DNA of 64,000 nt from Marinobacter adhaerens HP15 (GTDB lineage: Bacteria > Pseudomonadota > Gammaproteobacteria > Pseudomonadales > Oleiphilaceae): positions 3,410,001 through 3,474,000 of the forward strand of contig NC_017506.1 of assembly GCF_000166295.1 (NCBI RefSeq), written 5' to 3'. The position numbers and the translations under genes are program-made. Below the pieces are notes generated by a model. It was not told the DNA's origin, did not search any database, and worked only from the letters and a program-made list of their open reading frames with translations. This document shows positions 1 to 3,707 of this stretch, piece by piece (within the stretch, counting starts at the first letter, position 1; every line of letters begins with the position of its first letter).

Positions 1-716
1 CGTTCAACCTTCTTTACATCCGAATCCGGATCCAGAGGAAATTCTTCGTTAAACGTTTTCAGCGCGTAATTCCGGATGGTTTCATCCTGGATAGGACCAA
101 CCGAACCGCCAACCCCGAACATACGGACACGCACGCCCAGCCTGCTCAGGGCCTGGCCCAACTCCAGACCAATCACCCCCGGGCCAAAGACTGCCACCGA
201 ATCGGGAAGATCCTGCCATTCGAAGATATCGTCGTTTACAACCAGCCGATCCTTGGCATCTTTCAGAAACCCGGGAACATTGGGTCGGGAGCCTGTGGCG
301 ATGATGATACGCCCCGCCTCAACCTCGGCATTGCCGTCGACGACCAGACGATTCGGGCTGGCAAACCGGGCGTGGCCTTCAATGCGGTGCGCATCCGGAA
401 ACTTCTCGACCGAATCAATCACCGAAGCAACAAAGCGGTCCCGTTCGCTTCGCACCCTTTCCATCACCCGCTTTCCGTCGATCCTGATATCCCCGGCAGA
501 CACGCCGAAAAGCTCACCAAGCTGCATCTGATAAGCGTTGTCGGCGGCCGCGATCAACAACTTGCTCGGCATACACCCGACTCTGGCGCAGGTGGTTCCA
601 TAATGGCCGCCTTCGATCAGCACAACCTTGGCGGTTACTTTGCGCACGCGCTGGTAAGCAACCATACCGGCGGTTCCAGCTCCGATAATGGCAACGTCTA
701 CGGTTCGCTTTTCCAT
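1..716 (-). CDS. Dihydrolipoyl dehydrogenase-like flavoprotein, partial (C-terminus off the left edge)
   Basis: About 238 N-terminal residues are visible and the C-terminal half lies beyond the window. An FAD-binding GxGxxG motif (IIGAGTAG, residues 10-17) is followed by a redox-active CX4C pair (C43 and C48 in [11 protein letters not shown]). A second nucleotide-binding glycine motif ([11 protein letters not shown]) lies near residue 180. This is the class I pyridine nucleotide-disulfide oxidoreductase layout. Both redox cysteines are present, which favours a dihydrolipoyl dehydrogenase-type enzyme over soluble transhydrogenase, which lacks the pair. No E1/E2 dehydrogenase genes are adjacent, so it may be a stand-alone paralogue. 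The ATG start at 716 has an AGGAG site 8 nt upstream. It is divergent from the LysE-type exporter across a 173-bp spacer. Confidence 0.8.
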
Positions 717-889: not shown

Positions 890-1561
890 ATGCAGAGTTA
901 CTGGCCGGAATTTCTGACGGTAGCCTTTGTCCACCTGCTGGCCGTGGCCAGTCCCGGGCCGGACTTTGCCGTGATGCTCAGACAGGCTCTGTGCCAGACC
1001 CGGCGAAACGCGCTGCTAAGCGCCATTGGTATCGGCGGGGGCATTCTGGTGCATGTCTGTTATTCCCTACTTGGCATTGGCCTGCTGATCCAGCAATCGA
1101 TCATGCTCTTCAATGTTCTCAAGGTGCTGGGGGCACTTTACCTTGCCTGGATTGCTGTCCAGTGCCTGCGGGCAAGGGCCAACGGCATTCATGTGGAACA
1201 GGATCCGACGGGTGGACAGTCCGGTATTGCAGCCCTGCGATTGGGCTTTCTGACCAACGCGTTGAACCCCAAGGCAACGCTGTTCTTTGTGTCCCTTTTC
1301 TCTGTTGTGATCAGCCCAGGCACACCCATTGTGCTCCAGGCCGGCTATGGCATTTACATGGCCCTGGCCACGGCACTCTGGTTCGCCATGGTTGCCATTT
1401 TCTTTACCCTGCCCCGCGTCCGCCGCGGGTTTAACCGGTTCGGGCACTGGCTCGACCGGCTGATGGGCGGCGTTCTCCTGTTGCTGGCCGGACAGCTACT
1501 GCTGTCTACAGTGAGCGGATCAGAGCCTCCGTCTGCGCCCATCCAAGACACGGATCGGTGA
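890..1561 (+). CDS. LysE/RhtB-family amino-acid exporter
   Basis: A 223-residue inner-membrane protein with about six hydrophobic segments. The N-terminal block carries the family signature around ASPGPDFAVMLRQ, and the middle holds the conserved GFLTNALNPKATLFF stretch. Members export amino acids such as lysine, homoserine or threonine; the substrate cannot be told from sequence. I chose the ATG at 890 because GGAGGA lies 9 nt upstream and the protein then begins at the first membrane segment; an in-frame ATG at 794 would add a non-hydrophobic tail. The 3' end overlaps the convergent DAHP synthase gene by 56 bp. Confidence 0.85.
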   Translation: MQSYWPEFLTVAFVHLLAVASPGPDFAVMLRQALCQTRRNALLSAIGIGGGILVHVCYSLLGIGLLIQQSIMLFNVLKVLGALYLAWIAVQCLRARANGIHVEQDPTGGQSGIAALRLGFLTNALNPKATLFFVSLFSVVISPGTPIVLQAGYGIYMALATALWFAMVAIFFTLPRVRRGFNRFGHWLDRLMGGVLLLLAGQLLLSTVSGSEPPSAPIQDTDR

Positions 1562-2558
1562 TCGAACAGCCGTAGCGCAGATCTTCGCCGTCGTCCTGAC
1601 GCCCCGGCTCCAGGAAGCTTTCCAGCATCAGACCCCGGATATGGTGGTTACCGGCGCGGCGCTGCGCCATCACGTCCTGGGCAATATCCAGCTGTCGTTC
1701 TGACTGCTTGCAGGCGTTGTCGTGACTGCAGTCCACCATGACGGCTGTGGACAATCCCGCCTCTGCCAGGGCGCCCACGGCCTGCTCAATGCTGGCCGCA
1801 TCGTAATTGGTGATACCGCGGCCACCGCGCAACACCAGATGGGTGTCGGGGTTGCCCCGGGTGGTAATCATCACCGGCGCGCCTGTTGCCGAAACCCCAA
1901 GATGATGATGGGGATGGGACGCCGACTTCATGGCATTGGTAGCGACAGCGATACCACCATCGGTGCCATTCTTGAAGCCGGTCGGCATGGGTAGCCCACT
2001 GACTATCTCCCGATGCACCTGCGACTCGGTAGTTCGGGCACCAATAGCCGTCCAGCTCACCAGATCCCCAAGGTAATCCATGGCGAACGGGCTCAGGGCT
2101 TCGGTGGCCAGTGGCAGCCCCATGGCAGCCAGATTCAGGAGCAGGCGGCGGGAGCGACGCAGCCCCTCATGCAGATCGCCTGCACCCGTGCGCTCGGGGT
2201 CGTACAACAGCCCTTTCCAACCCACCGTGGTCCGAGGCTTTTCCAGGTAGGCCCTCATAACGATAAGGAAGCGATCACTGACTTCATCCGCCAGGGCTTT
2301 CAGCTTTTCCCCGTATTCGAGTGCGGCCACCTCATCGTGGATGGAGCAGGGCCCCATGACGATCAGCGTTCTCGTGTCGCTGCCCTGCAGAATCCGCCGG
2401 ATTGCCTGCCGGTGTTCATCGACCTGCCGGACAATGTCGTCGCTGGCCGGCATCTGAAGTTTGAGCTCCGCCGGCGTTGGCAGAACCACTTCTTCCCGGT
2501 GGGTGGCCGGTGATCCGACTACCTGGTGTGTCAGTTCAGTGTTCAAGGACATATTCAT
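1506..2558 (-). CDS. 3-deoxy-7-phosphoheptulonate (DAHP) synthase, class I
   Basis: A 350-residue enzyme that condenses phosphoenolpyruvate and erythrose 4-phosphate, the first step of the shikimate pathway. Recognisable blocks are GPCSIHD (residues 69-75, with the metal-ligand Cys71), MRAYLEKPRTTVGWKG, the lysine-bearing GFKNGTDGG motif, and VDCSHDNACK with the metal-binding His. Length matches the AroF/AroG/AroH group, but the isozyme cannot be assigned from motifs alone. The ATG at 2558 is preceded by a GGAAG site; an in-frame codon at 2591 lies inside the terminator hairpin and is unlikely. Just upstream is an aromatic leader peptide and a U-tracted hairpin, so expression is probably attenuated by Phe/Tyr/Trp supply. 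The 3' end overlaps the convergent exporter gene. Confidence 0.93.
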   Translation of the reverse strand: MNMSLNTELTHQVVGSPATHREEVVLPTPAELKLQMPASDDIVRQVDEHRQAIRRILQGSDTRTLIVMGPCSIHDEVAALEYGEKLKALADEVSDRFLIVMRAYLEKPRTTVGWKGLLYDPERTGAGDLHEGLRRSRRLLLNLAAMGLPLATEALSPFAMDYLGDLVSWTAIGARTTESQVHREIVSGLPMPTGFKNGTDGGIAVATNAMKSASHPHHHLGVSATGAPVMITTRGNPDTHLVLRGGRGITNYDAASIEQAVGALAEAGLSTAVMVDCSHDNACKQSERQLDIAQDVMAQRRAGNHHIRGLMLESFLEPGRQDDGEDLRYGCSITDPCLGWAQTEALIRSL

Positions 2559-2589
2559 GTCAGTGCTTCCGTTTCCCTGCGTCAGAATC

Positions 2590-2628
2590 AAAAAAGCCCC
2601 GGCTGGTGGGCTACCAGTCGGGGCTTTT
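2590..2628 (-). terminator. Attenuator terminator hairpin of the DAHP synthase leader
   Basis: Read on the minus strand, GCCCCGACTGGT pairs with ACCAGCCGGGGC across a 5-nt loop (12-bp stem with one A-C mismatch) and is followed directly by six T residues. It ends about 30 nt before the DAHP synthase start and about 65 nt after the leader-peptide stop. No gene ends just upstream on this strand, so the hairpin makes sense as an attenuator rather than an end-of-gene terminator. Confidence 0.75.
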
Positions 2629-2693
2629 CGAGTCCGGTGGCAGCCTGGGTTTTCTGCCGGGCTGCCTTCCTCGTTATTCGTTCGATGAAGATC

Positions 2694-2831
2694 CTATGGG
2701 CGGCCCCGGCTCTGGCTAAAATAAAAGCCATAACCAAACCACCAGAAAAACACAGCAGCGACTGCAGCCGCCGGCTTGGCGCCGAAAGCTTGCAAAACAT
2801 TCAATTGACAGGTCGCGTGTGTCGTCTTCAT
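2694..2831 (-). CDS. Aromatic leader peptide upstream of DAHP synthase
   Basis: A 45-codon reading frame that starts at ATG 2831 and stops at TAG 2694-2696. Its C-terminal third reads VFFWWFGYGFYF: five Phe, two Trp and two Tyr codons among twelve. Such a run is the hallmark of a leader that monitors charged aromatic tRNAs. The frame ends 9 nt upstream-side of a segment that matches the 3' arm of the attenuator terminator. The exact start is uncertain: no good Shine-Dalgarno precedes the ATG, and the best promoter (-10 at 2839-2844) would place the transcript start almost at the ATG, so translation may be leaderless or begin at an in-frame TTG. The role is inferred from architecture only. Confidence 0.7.
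   Translation of the reverse strand: MKTTHATCQLNVLQAFGAKPAAAVAAVFFWWFGYGFYFSQSRGRP
2703..2711 (-). promoter_or_regulatory. Antiterminator segment (copy of the terminator 3' arm)
   Basis: On the minus strand AGCCGGGGC occurs here, over the last codons of the leader peptide, and again as the 3' arm of the terminator hairpin (2596-2604). Both copies can pair with the same GCCCCG segment at 2620-2625. This gives mutually exclusive antiterminator and terminator folds, as in ribosome-controlled attenuation. Confidence 0.6.
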
Positions 2832-2838
2832 GCTTTTC

Positions 2839-2868
2839 AATATATACCCACGGTTTTCACCTTGGCAA
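2839..2868 (-). promoter_or_regulatory. Candidate sigma-70 promoter for the DAHP synthase leader
   Basis: On the minus strand TTGCCA (2863-2868) and TATATT (2839-2844) are separated by 18 bp. The predicted start of transcription lies within a few bases of the leader-peptide ATG at 2831. The promoter region is shared back to back with the secretin-like gene that starts at 2919. Confidence 0.5.
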
Positions 2869-2918: not shown

Positions 2919-3707
2919 ATGGTCTATTTTGTCCGACGATATCCTCTGCAGCTGGCCCTGGCGTTCTTGCTCGGGCTGATCTCCAGCCAGGTTCTGGCCC
3001 AGGCCGAGTCCCGCACCTACCAGCTCAACAACAGGCCGGGCGACGATGTGGCGGTGCAGATCCGCGAGCTCTATCAGGGCTCGCCGGTAACCGTGACTGC
3101 AAGGGGGCAACAACTGGTGGTGCGCGGCGAACCGCCCTTGCTGGAGGAAATCGGACGGCTTGTCGAAACGCTGGATGTAGCGCCAGTCCAGGTTCGGATC
3201 ACCGTTCGCTCCAGAACCGACAGCGGCGGCAAGCGCTCAGGTGCAGGCATCTCCGCGTCCAACGGTCAGGCAGGAATATCCGCAGAGCGTCGCGTTACCA
3301 GTACCGGCAGCGCTCAGGAACGATCAGTGATCATGCAGGATGGCCAGTCGGCGCACATCACCTCGGGCCAGGTCCGGACAATCCCCGTCGCTGTTCGTGG
3401 TGGCCGAAATCCTGCTGCCTTTCTACAGCAGGTCGAAACGCGCAGTGGCTTTCTGGTCAGCCCCCAGGTTATTTCTGATCAGGCGGTCGAACTGAGCATT
3501 GTTTCCTTCGAGGAAGAGCCGGCAAACCTGAACGGCTACGAAACGGAGGCGGTGGTCACCATCCGGCGTGTGGAGCCGGGACAGTGGGTAACATTGGGAA
3601 GCACCGCAACCCGATCAACCCAGGAGCGCAGTGGCATTACCTATCAGGTGAACAGCAGTCGGTCCGAGAACCGGAGTTTTGAAGTGCGGGTCGACGTTCT
3701 GCCCTGA
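2919..3707 (+). CDS. Stand-alone secretin N-domain-like periplasmic protein
   Basis: 262 residues with a signal peptide (about residues 1-28, cleavage near SSQVLAQA). The mature N-terminus (residues 30-80) alternates short strands in a pattern like the N1 domain of type II secretion/secretin proteins (YQLNN..., REL..., VVRGEPPLLEEIGRLVETLD). A Ser/Gly-rich central part and a beta-rich C-terminal part follow, containing paired phrases on 'inhibitory' strands. It lacks the outer-membrane secretin barrel, being far shorter than a GspD/PilQ protein, and no secretion genes are nearby. The start at 2919 has GGTTGGGAG upstream. Function is unknown; a periplasmic scaffold or pseudo-secretin is an inference. 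Confidence 0.6.
   Translation: MVYFVRRYPLQLALAFLLGLISSQVLAQAESRTYQLNNRPGDDVAVQIRELYQGSPVTVTARGQQLVVRGEPPLLEEIGRLVETLDVAPVQVRITVRSRTDSGGKRSGAGISASNGQAGISAERRVTSTGSAQERSVIMQDGQSAHITSGQVRTIPVAVRGGRNPAAFLQQVETRSGFLVSPQVISDQAVELSIVSFEEEPANLNGYETEAVVTIRRVEPGQWVTLGSTATRSTQERSGITYQVNSSRSENRSFEVRVDVLP

Follow-up and report, generated by a model that had tools for sequence, protein, structure and literature searches.

The 64,000-nucleotide stretch of DNA analysed here (the window) contains a 45-residue reading frame rich in Phe, Tyr and Trp codons upstream of a DAHP synthase gene. The arrangement of the sequence and the modelled folds make it highly likely that this frame is part of a ribosome-mediated transcription attenuator, which would tie one DAHP synthase to charged tRNA-Phe, tRNA-Tyr and tRNA-Trp together. 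The shikimate pathway begins with DAHP synthase, and in E. coli the genes for this enzyme are known for repressor control. The clade described below has members in Pseudomonas, Stutzerimonas, Halomonas and Marinobacter, and throughout it a single leader seems to read the three end products together. The observation of the leader is sound and its interpretation as an attenuator is very probably right.

The leader frame and its promoter

The leader ORF is found at 2694-2831 on the minus strand, with an ATG at 2831 and a TAG ending at 2694, and encodes the 45 amino acid peptide MKTTHATCQLNVLQAFGAKPAAAVAAVFFWWFGYGFYFSQSRGRP. An aromatic short frame just upstream of the DAHP synthase gene, as put forward in the original prediction, is thus present, and it is codirectional with that gene; 135 nt separate the leader stop from the probable ATG of DAHP synthase at 2558. 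The run FFWWFGYGFYF consists of 11 codons, nine of which are aromatic (5 Phe, 2 Trp and 2 Tyr). The earlier count of nine aromatic codons in twelve agrees with this, as the eleven-codon run and the next codon, for Ser, make twelve. The putative sensing run, FFWWFGYGFYFS (2715-2750, minus strand), is encoded by TTT TTC TGG TGG TTT GGT TAT GGC TTT TAT TTT AGC. Across the six frames of the 64 kb window, at least 7 aromatic residues per 10 occur in only four overlapping stretches, all of which are in this run. Start codons and stops were picked by rule. The open stretch extends 5′ of the leader ATG, up to a TTG at 2915; the ATG at 2831 was taken as the start because its position behind the promoter is conserved. 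A sub-threshold Pfam match of the leader to DUF2752 (16.1 bits, cut-off 27) was rejected as low-complexity hydrophobic similarity, and a search with the leader peptide against NCBIfam gave no match.

A −35-like hexamer (TTGCCA, 2863-2868, minus strand) and a −10-like hexamer (TATATT, 2839-2844, minus strand), separated by a spacer of 18, make up a sigma-70-like promoter (10/12 matches) that ends 7 nt 5′ of the leader ATG. The arrangement TTGCNN-16..19-TATANN-5..9-ATG is kept in all 30 of the distinct Marinobacter leader sequences and the leader is therefore probably translated from a leaderless transcript, which would start at or adjoining the ATG. Leaderless leader peptides are described for Streptomyces in an excerpt of PMC8079986.

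The probable target gene and its clade

The probable target gene encodes a type I-alpha DAHP synthase (aroFGH family) at 1506-2558 on the minus strand, the ATG at 2558 having been picked by reading. The ORF, 1506-2591(-), matches TIGR00034 with 424.8 bits and the nearest solved relatives of its product are Tyr-sensitive and other DAHP synthases. Gene-first searches gave a DAHP synthase match in 167 of 232 genomes class-wide and in 142 of 145 order-wide. The most aromatic upstream ORF was scored in 58 search loci and in 60 stretches fetched by place, one of which repeats L118.

A tree was constructed from 133 DAHP synthases, including loci first found through leader or P15 searches (P15 is the Rfam family discussed below) and leaving out identical proteins, those of fewer than 250 residues and, except for two, Marinobacter proteins more than 80% identical to that of the window. 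In one clade (40 proteins, support 99) at least 5 aromatic residues of 10 are present upstream in 40/40 and at least 6 in 39/40. Among the remaining 93 proteins nine reach a score of at least 5 and three (L172, L175 and L177) a score of at least 6; a score of 5 is therefore unspecific when taken by itself. Those clade members that were found by gene first have the leader in 24/24 cases. The second DAHP synthase of the window genome (L119), which belongs to another clade, has no aromatic leader upstream, and neither do the relatives of the L177 gene on a Cupriavidus plasmid (79.6% identity) and in Vibrio, in the 550 bases scanned. From named genomes 80 loci were obtained by a scan, of which 16 have a leader of the window type; this type was found in Stutzerimonas, Halopseudomonas, Salinicola, Chromohalobacter, Halomonas, Marinobacter oulmenensis and, within Pseudomonas, in P. 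putida, P. fuscovaginae, P. umsongensis and others.

Conservation and selection

Of 100 same-genus genomes, that of the window counted, 96 gave a match to the leader over at least 43 of its 45 residues in a peptide search. In two genomes (G015 and G061) there is no leader, and the only DAHP synthase is the other one. G027 lacks a full leader match, and there a contig end interrupts the DAHP synthase gene; G091 is 58% complete, has a match to residues 1-21 only and gave only the other DAHP synthase. The proposed check, namely a search for the same frame in other Marinobacter and related genomes, hence came out in favour of conservation, in the genus and in Pseudomonas-type relatives too. That the frame is a chance one without function is practically inconceivable: no support for this was found, and the conservation in the genus, which already refutes it, and the linkage to one DAHP synthase clade both contradict it.

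Among 26 distinct 45-codon leaders pN/pS is 0.37 in the leader frame compared with 0.87 and 0.76 in the shifted frames. The ratio is lowest in the aromatic run (0.12) and is 0.30 for residues 2-17, while codons 28 and 30-37 are invariant. The last five leader codons go in the opposite direction to the rest (pN/pS 3.5), which is read as RNA constraint. Residues 2-17 (KTTHATCQLNVLQAFG, 2779-2826, minus strand) are conserved in the genus though far from the sensing run, and attenuation alone does not require conservation of the N-terminal part. The earlier expectation of conserved aromatic codons and a variable rest holds across families, where the aromatic end only is kept, and fails within the genus, where the N-terminal part is kept too.

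Amino acids probably read by the leader

Phe, Tyr and Trp are all present in 52 of 52 distinct 24-residue leader tails, which were selected by a shared motif. The tails vary by family, with FFWWFGYGFYFS, GYFFYGYWFS, FYFGYWFS and FFFGYYFS as well as WFGYGYFS and FFGYYFS. TTT makes up 145 of the 181 Phe codons in the tails, compared with 25/82 in four genes of the window, and TAT makes up 109 of the 127 Tyr codons, compared with 13/51, although these tail counts come from related sequences and are hence not independent.

Attenuation could also be real and yet depend on a nascent-peptide stall, with a free amino acid or another ligand sensed in the exit tunnel instead of hungry codons; TnaC and SecM are examples of such stalls. 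The conservation of the peptide beyond the run in the genus, with the low pN/pS of residues 2-17, would agree with this, as would the order Gly-Tyr-Trp-Phe-Ser, which is fixed in the Pseudomonas group. Across families, however, it is composition that is kept while order and length vary (compare FFWWFGYGFYFS and FYFGYWFS with WFGYGYFS and FFGYYFS), and RNA pairing accounts for part of the fixed order, for example GGGTAT with ATACCC. We consider a nascent-peptide stall very unlikely and prefer the reading of codons by the ribosome.

Terminator, proposed pairing segments and folding

The window leader has two features of an attenuator, in that an upstream codirectional ORF rich in end-product codons is separated from the gene by an intrinsic terminator. 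The terminator (2590-2630, minus strand; −23.8 kcal/mol) consists of the helix E:F, with E at about 2608-2628 and F at about 2590-2607, and a U tract. A terminator is present 3′ of the leader in 58 of the 63 clade leaders analysed, as a strong hairpin with a U tract about 40-70 nt past the leader stop. By the set rule none was found in the clade loci L038, L040, L041, L118 and L189 (5/63), which were omitted from the fold comparison below; a looser rule found one in L118.

The transcript was folded as far as the loop of the terminator, either with a ribosome placed on each of the aromatic codons or with one on the stop codon, and the upstream pairing of the terminator 5′ arm was measured. Sequestration of this arm is higher with the ribosome stalled than at the stop in 56 of 58 clade leaders and not higher in the other 2. 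Because less RNA is always left upstream when the ribosome is at the stop, a control with shuffled spacers was added, for 39 chosen loci out of the 63 clade leaders. In the Marinobacter-type loci (n = 13, namely 12 Marinobacter and L102) arm sequestration is 0.78 stalled and 0.36 at the stop, compared with 0.61 and 0.57 for the shuffled spacers. The corresponding values for the Pseudomonas-like and Halomonas-like loci (n = 19) are 0.56 and 0.31 (shuffled 0.54 and 0.50), and for the f7 loci (n = 2) 0.22 and 0.03 (shuffled 0.39 and 0.35). The contrast is due mainly to lower capture of the arm at the stop codon, and at the single loci L032, L180, L185, L036, L097 and L039 the difference falls in the range of the shuffles. 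With no ribosome on the transcript the terminator arm is still captured (means 0.62 and 0.46), and strong termination in the absence of translation is therefore not predicted by the model, unlike for trp.

The folds and the reading of the alignments suggest a six-segment chain, in which A:B, C:D and E:F would form for termination, and B:C and D:E for read-through. Segment A (2734-2744), over the Trp-Trp-Phe codons, is the putative partner of B; B (GGGCCGCC, 2699-2706), in the last leader codons, would pair with A or C; C (GGCAGCCCGGC, 2656-2666) with B or D; and D (GGCTGCCACCGG, 2634-2645), for which the fold of L018 was also used, with C or, as antiterminator, with E. All four are on the minus strand. 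A trp-like 1:2/2:3/3:4 pairing was considered; the alignments point to a longer, his-like chain, unproven by covariation. In the alignment of the Pseudomonas group the termination-state pairing is possible in 93.5% of cells, with compensatory changes in 3 of 13 pairs of the terminator helix and one in the C:D-type helix. For the antitermination helices of the same group the figure is 89.3%, with no covariation above that of shuffles. L187 was omitted from alignment A2 as a duplicate.

In the proposed mechanism RNA polymerase would begin near the leader ATG and the leader would be translated during synthesis. With all three aminoacyl-tRNAs ample, the ribosome would reach the stop codon and cover segment B, and C would pair with D; E would then be free for F and the terminator would end transcription about 35 nt short of the gene. 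A shortage of any one aminoacyl-tRNA would instead stall the ribosome in the aromatic run and B would pair with C, so that D would be free to capture E, with read-through into the DAHP synthase gene. We infer the translation of the leader, its leaderless start, the exact pairing of the segments and the response to each amino acid. The original prediction had the leader, through its translation, sense all three aromatic amino acids on behalf of DAHP synthase, and this agrees with the gene-linked conservation, the composition of the 52 tails, the terminator and the predicted ribosome-dependent pairing.

A second leader behind the terminator in relatives

A second aromatic ORF is present between the terminator and the gene in 24 of 32 clade loci examined outside Marinobacter; in L105, for example, it begins some 192 bases and ends some 39 bases ahead of the aligned DAHP synthase start, and L032, L179, L193 and others also have it. 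It contains an invariant DNA core, TGGCGATTT, which encodes Trp, Arg (the rare codon CGA) and Phe, and is Tyr-rich upstream of this core. An ATG with a Shine-Dalgarno-like sequence is found in 24/24, and the aromatic fraction is 0.36 in frame compared with 0.04 in the other frames. Among 244 regions upstream of DAHP synthase, 34, all of the clade (genome repeats counted), have the 9-mer TGGCGATTT on the coding strand, and one has it on the other strand. A strict pattern search of 145 genomes placed the second leader at 3 DAHP synthases and at 3 other, apparently chance places. Three examples of it matched no family in Pfam or NCBIfam.

It is plausible, though we propose it only tentatively, that the clade DAHP synthase is under two aromatic leaders in series and that Marinobacter kept the first only and made it leaderless. 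The first would be the trivalent, terminator-coupled leader (P15 in Pseudomonas) and the second the Tyr-rich one with the core TGGCGATTTA. The Marinobacter terminator is about 35 nt before the gene, which leaves no room for a second leader. A terminator-like hairpin is found behind the second leader in 1 of 32 loci only, where it overlaps the ORF; a second leader without an intrinsic terminator would therefore act by another step, for example translation or Rho.

Control through translation or Rho could be extended to the first leader, in place of the intrinsic terminator. The second leader of the relatives, with its missing intrinsic terminator, and some Halomonas-like loci, in which a clear U tract is missing, are in line with this, but the terminator in the window is strong and has a U tract, and we regard such control as extremely unlikely compared with termination at the hairpin.

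Separate aromatic leaders before DAHP synthase

Family f137 of the class (L259-L288) has a different aromatic leader, for example FYFYFWFSVPGGREA, which is closely followed by a compact terminator in 30/30 loci. In many cases an extended −10-like sequence, TGTGCTACATT, precedes this leader by a few bases. Phe, Tyr and Trp are all present in 27/30 of these leaders. In the folds arm sequestration is 0.87 stalled and 0.21 at the stop (shuffled 0.56 and 0.41), and the stalled value is higher in 30/30. Eleven f137 loci, of 14 loci scanned in all, had no Rfam match at E 0.01. The distinct f137 leaders suggest that aromatic leaders ahead of DAHP synthase have more than one origin, or that they have moved.

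Further aromatic leaders with terminators are seen before DAHP synthase in L223 (an Armatimonadetes MAG), L254 (a Proteobacteria MAG) and L175; L254 matches the Rfam Phe_leader with 39.9 bits, below the cut-off of 55. Short frames with YWRF or WYAYF, similar to that of Corynebacterium glutamicum aroF, precede DAHP synthase in L194 and L258 (mycobacteria) and L218 (Arthrobacter). For the Acinetobacter leader L257, the DAHP synthase was matched in 0 of 39 genomes of g26 (presumed Acinetobacter) at E 1e-120.

Relationship to P15 and other known systems

The original prediction knew of no named Rfam family for the leader; one does exist, RF00627 (P15), which is its Pseudomonas version. The window itself matches no Rfam family at gathering thresholds, and scores 15.4 bits against P15, below the gathering cut-off of 70; the weak matches of the window (E up to 10) number 14, namely P15 and 13 others, and include none to RF00513 (Trp_leader), RF01859 (Phe_leader), T-box or riboswitches. 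In 145 genomes of the order, all 6 of the P15 matches above the cut-off, and 11 of 11 with E of at most 0.0035, are ahead of the DAHP synthase of the clade. P15 is taken to be the Pseudomonas form of the leader because its matches precede the same-clade DAHP synthase, a place that the window leader shares. Matches weaker than E 0.01 and away from DAHP synthase (e.g. L043, L045 and L047) were treated as chance. Of 20 loci scanned, most of them from named Pseudomonas and relatives, 12 have P15 above the cut-off and a further 3 have it with E of at most 0.01; no P15 is present in the control L235, whose DAHP synthase belongs to the other clade. Downstream of the DAHP synthase in L235 (Pseudomonas viridiflava) is a match to a different Rfam family, P14 (RF01669, 90.8 bits, 2973-3118, plus strand).

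RF00627 resembles the window leader in its downstream gene, and in Pseudomonas leaders the model spans the leader codons to the terminator. It differs from our reading of the window in being filed as an sRNA, with an Rfam description that has neither leader peptide nor attenuation. On the basis of synteny, an excerpt of PMC2527527 suggests a possible riboswitch function for P15. The place of P15 on the P. aeruginosa map was sought in the literature via PA1750 and PA2843 and was not found. If the short RNA were primarily a trans-acting small RNA, the frame would be incidental; P15 is named as a Pseudomonas sRNA in Rfam and, in an excerpt of PMC2375449, is counted among the sRNAs detected by Livny et al. 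Such a detection is also in keeping with a leader transcript that ends at the terminator. Purifying selection acts on the frame in Marinobacter, all three aromatic residues are always present and the 11 matches with E of at most 0.0035 sit ahead of DAHP synthase, all of which argue against a primary role in trans, to which we attach very little credence.

If P15 is an attenuator leader, it gains a function and shifts from an sRNA to a cis-regulatory leader, and its reading changes in the transcriptome studies affected; an excerpt of PMC10215021, for example, has P15 among the changed genes. Engineering of Pseudomonas putida for aromatics would also be affected, since the first enzyme would remain limited as long as the leader is in place.

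Attenuation of DAHP synthase has precedent, proposed in C. glutamicum and predicted in Vibrio and Shewanella. For C. glutamicum aroF a putative leader peptide and attenuator were proposed (excerpt of PMC4046766), before a DAHP synthase as in the window, with the codons Phe-Tyr-Phe. This system is actinobacterial, its excerpted description names only Phe and Tyr, and it is likened to the window by description. In excerpts, attenuators were predicted before aroA-I-alpha-Y > tyrA of Vibrio (PMC1173090) and cis elements for aroH/aroF of Shewanella (PMC2659441). Like the window reading, these are computed predictions of termination control of gammaproteobacterial DAHP synthase genes; unlike it, they describe no aromatic leader in the text excerpted. 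The Vibrio loci scanned here have at most 5 aromatic residues of 10 upstream. In open full text we recognised no description of a DAHP synthase leader peptide from Pseudomonas, Halomonas or Marinobacter, subscription papers being outside this search, so that earlier reports may exist; the same search, within the same scope, recognised no description of P15 as a leader peptide.

The principle of the window leader is shared with Trp_leader (RF00513) and Phe_leader (RF01859). The ilvGMEDA and ilvB leaders are multivalent, one leader reading several branched-chain amino acids of one pathway; the window leader would be multivalent in the same way and differs in the amino acids read. The attenuator of the enteric his operon has a six-segment chain, A:B, C:D and E:F against B:C and D:E. 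A chain of exclusive helices of this kind is predicted for the window, whereas the his attenuator reads one amino acid and is unrelated in sequence. The type of switch is thus a known one, and what appears to set this case apart is that three amino acids are read, that P15 is explained and that relatives have a second leader.
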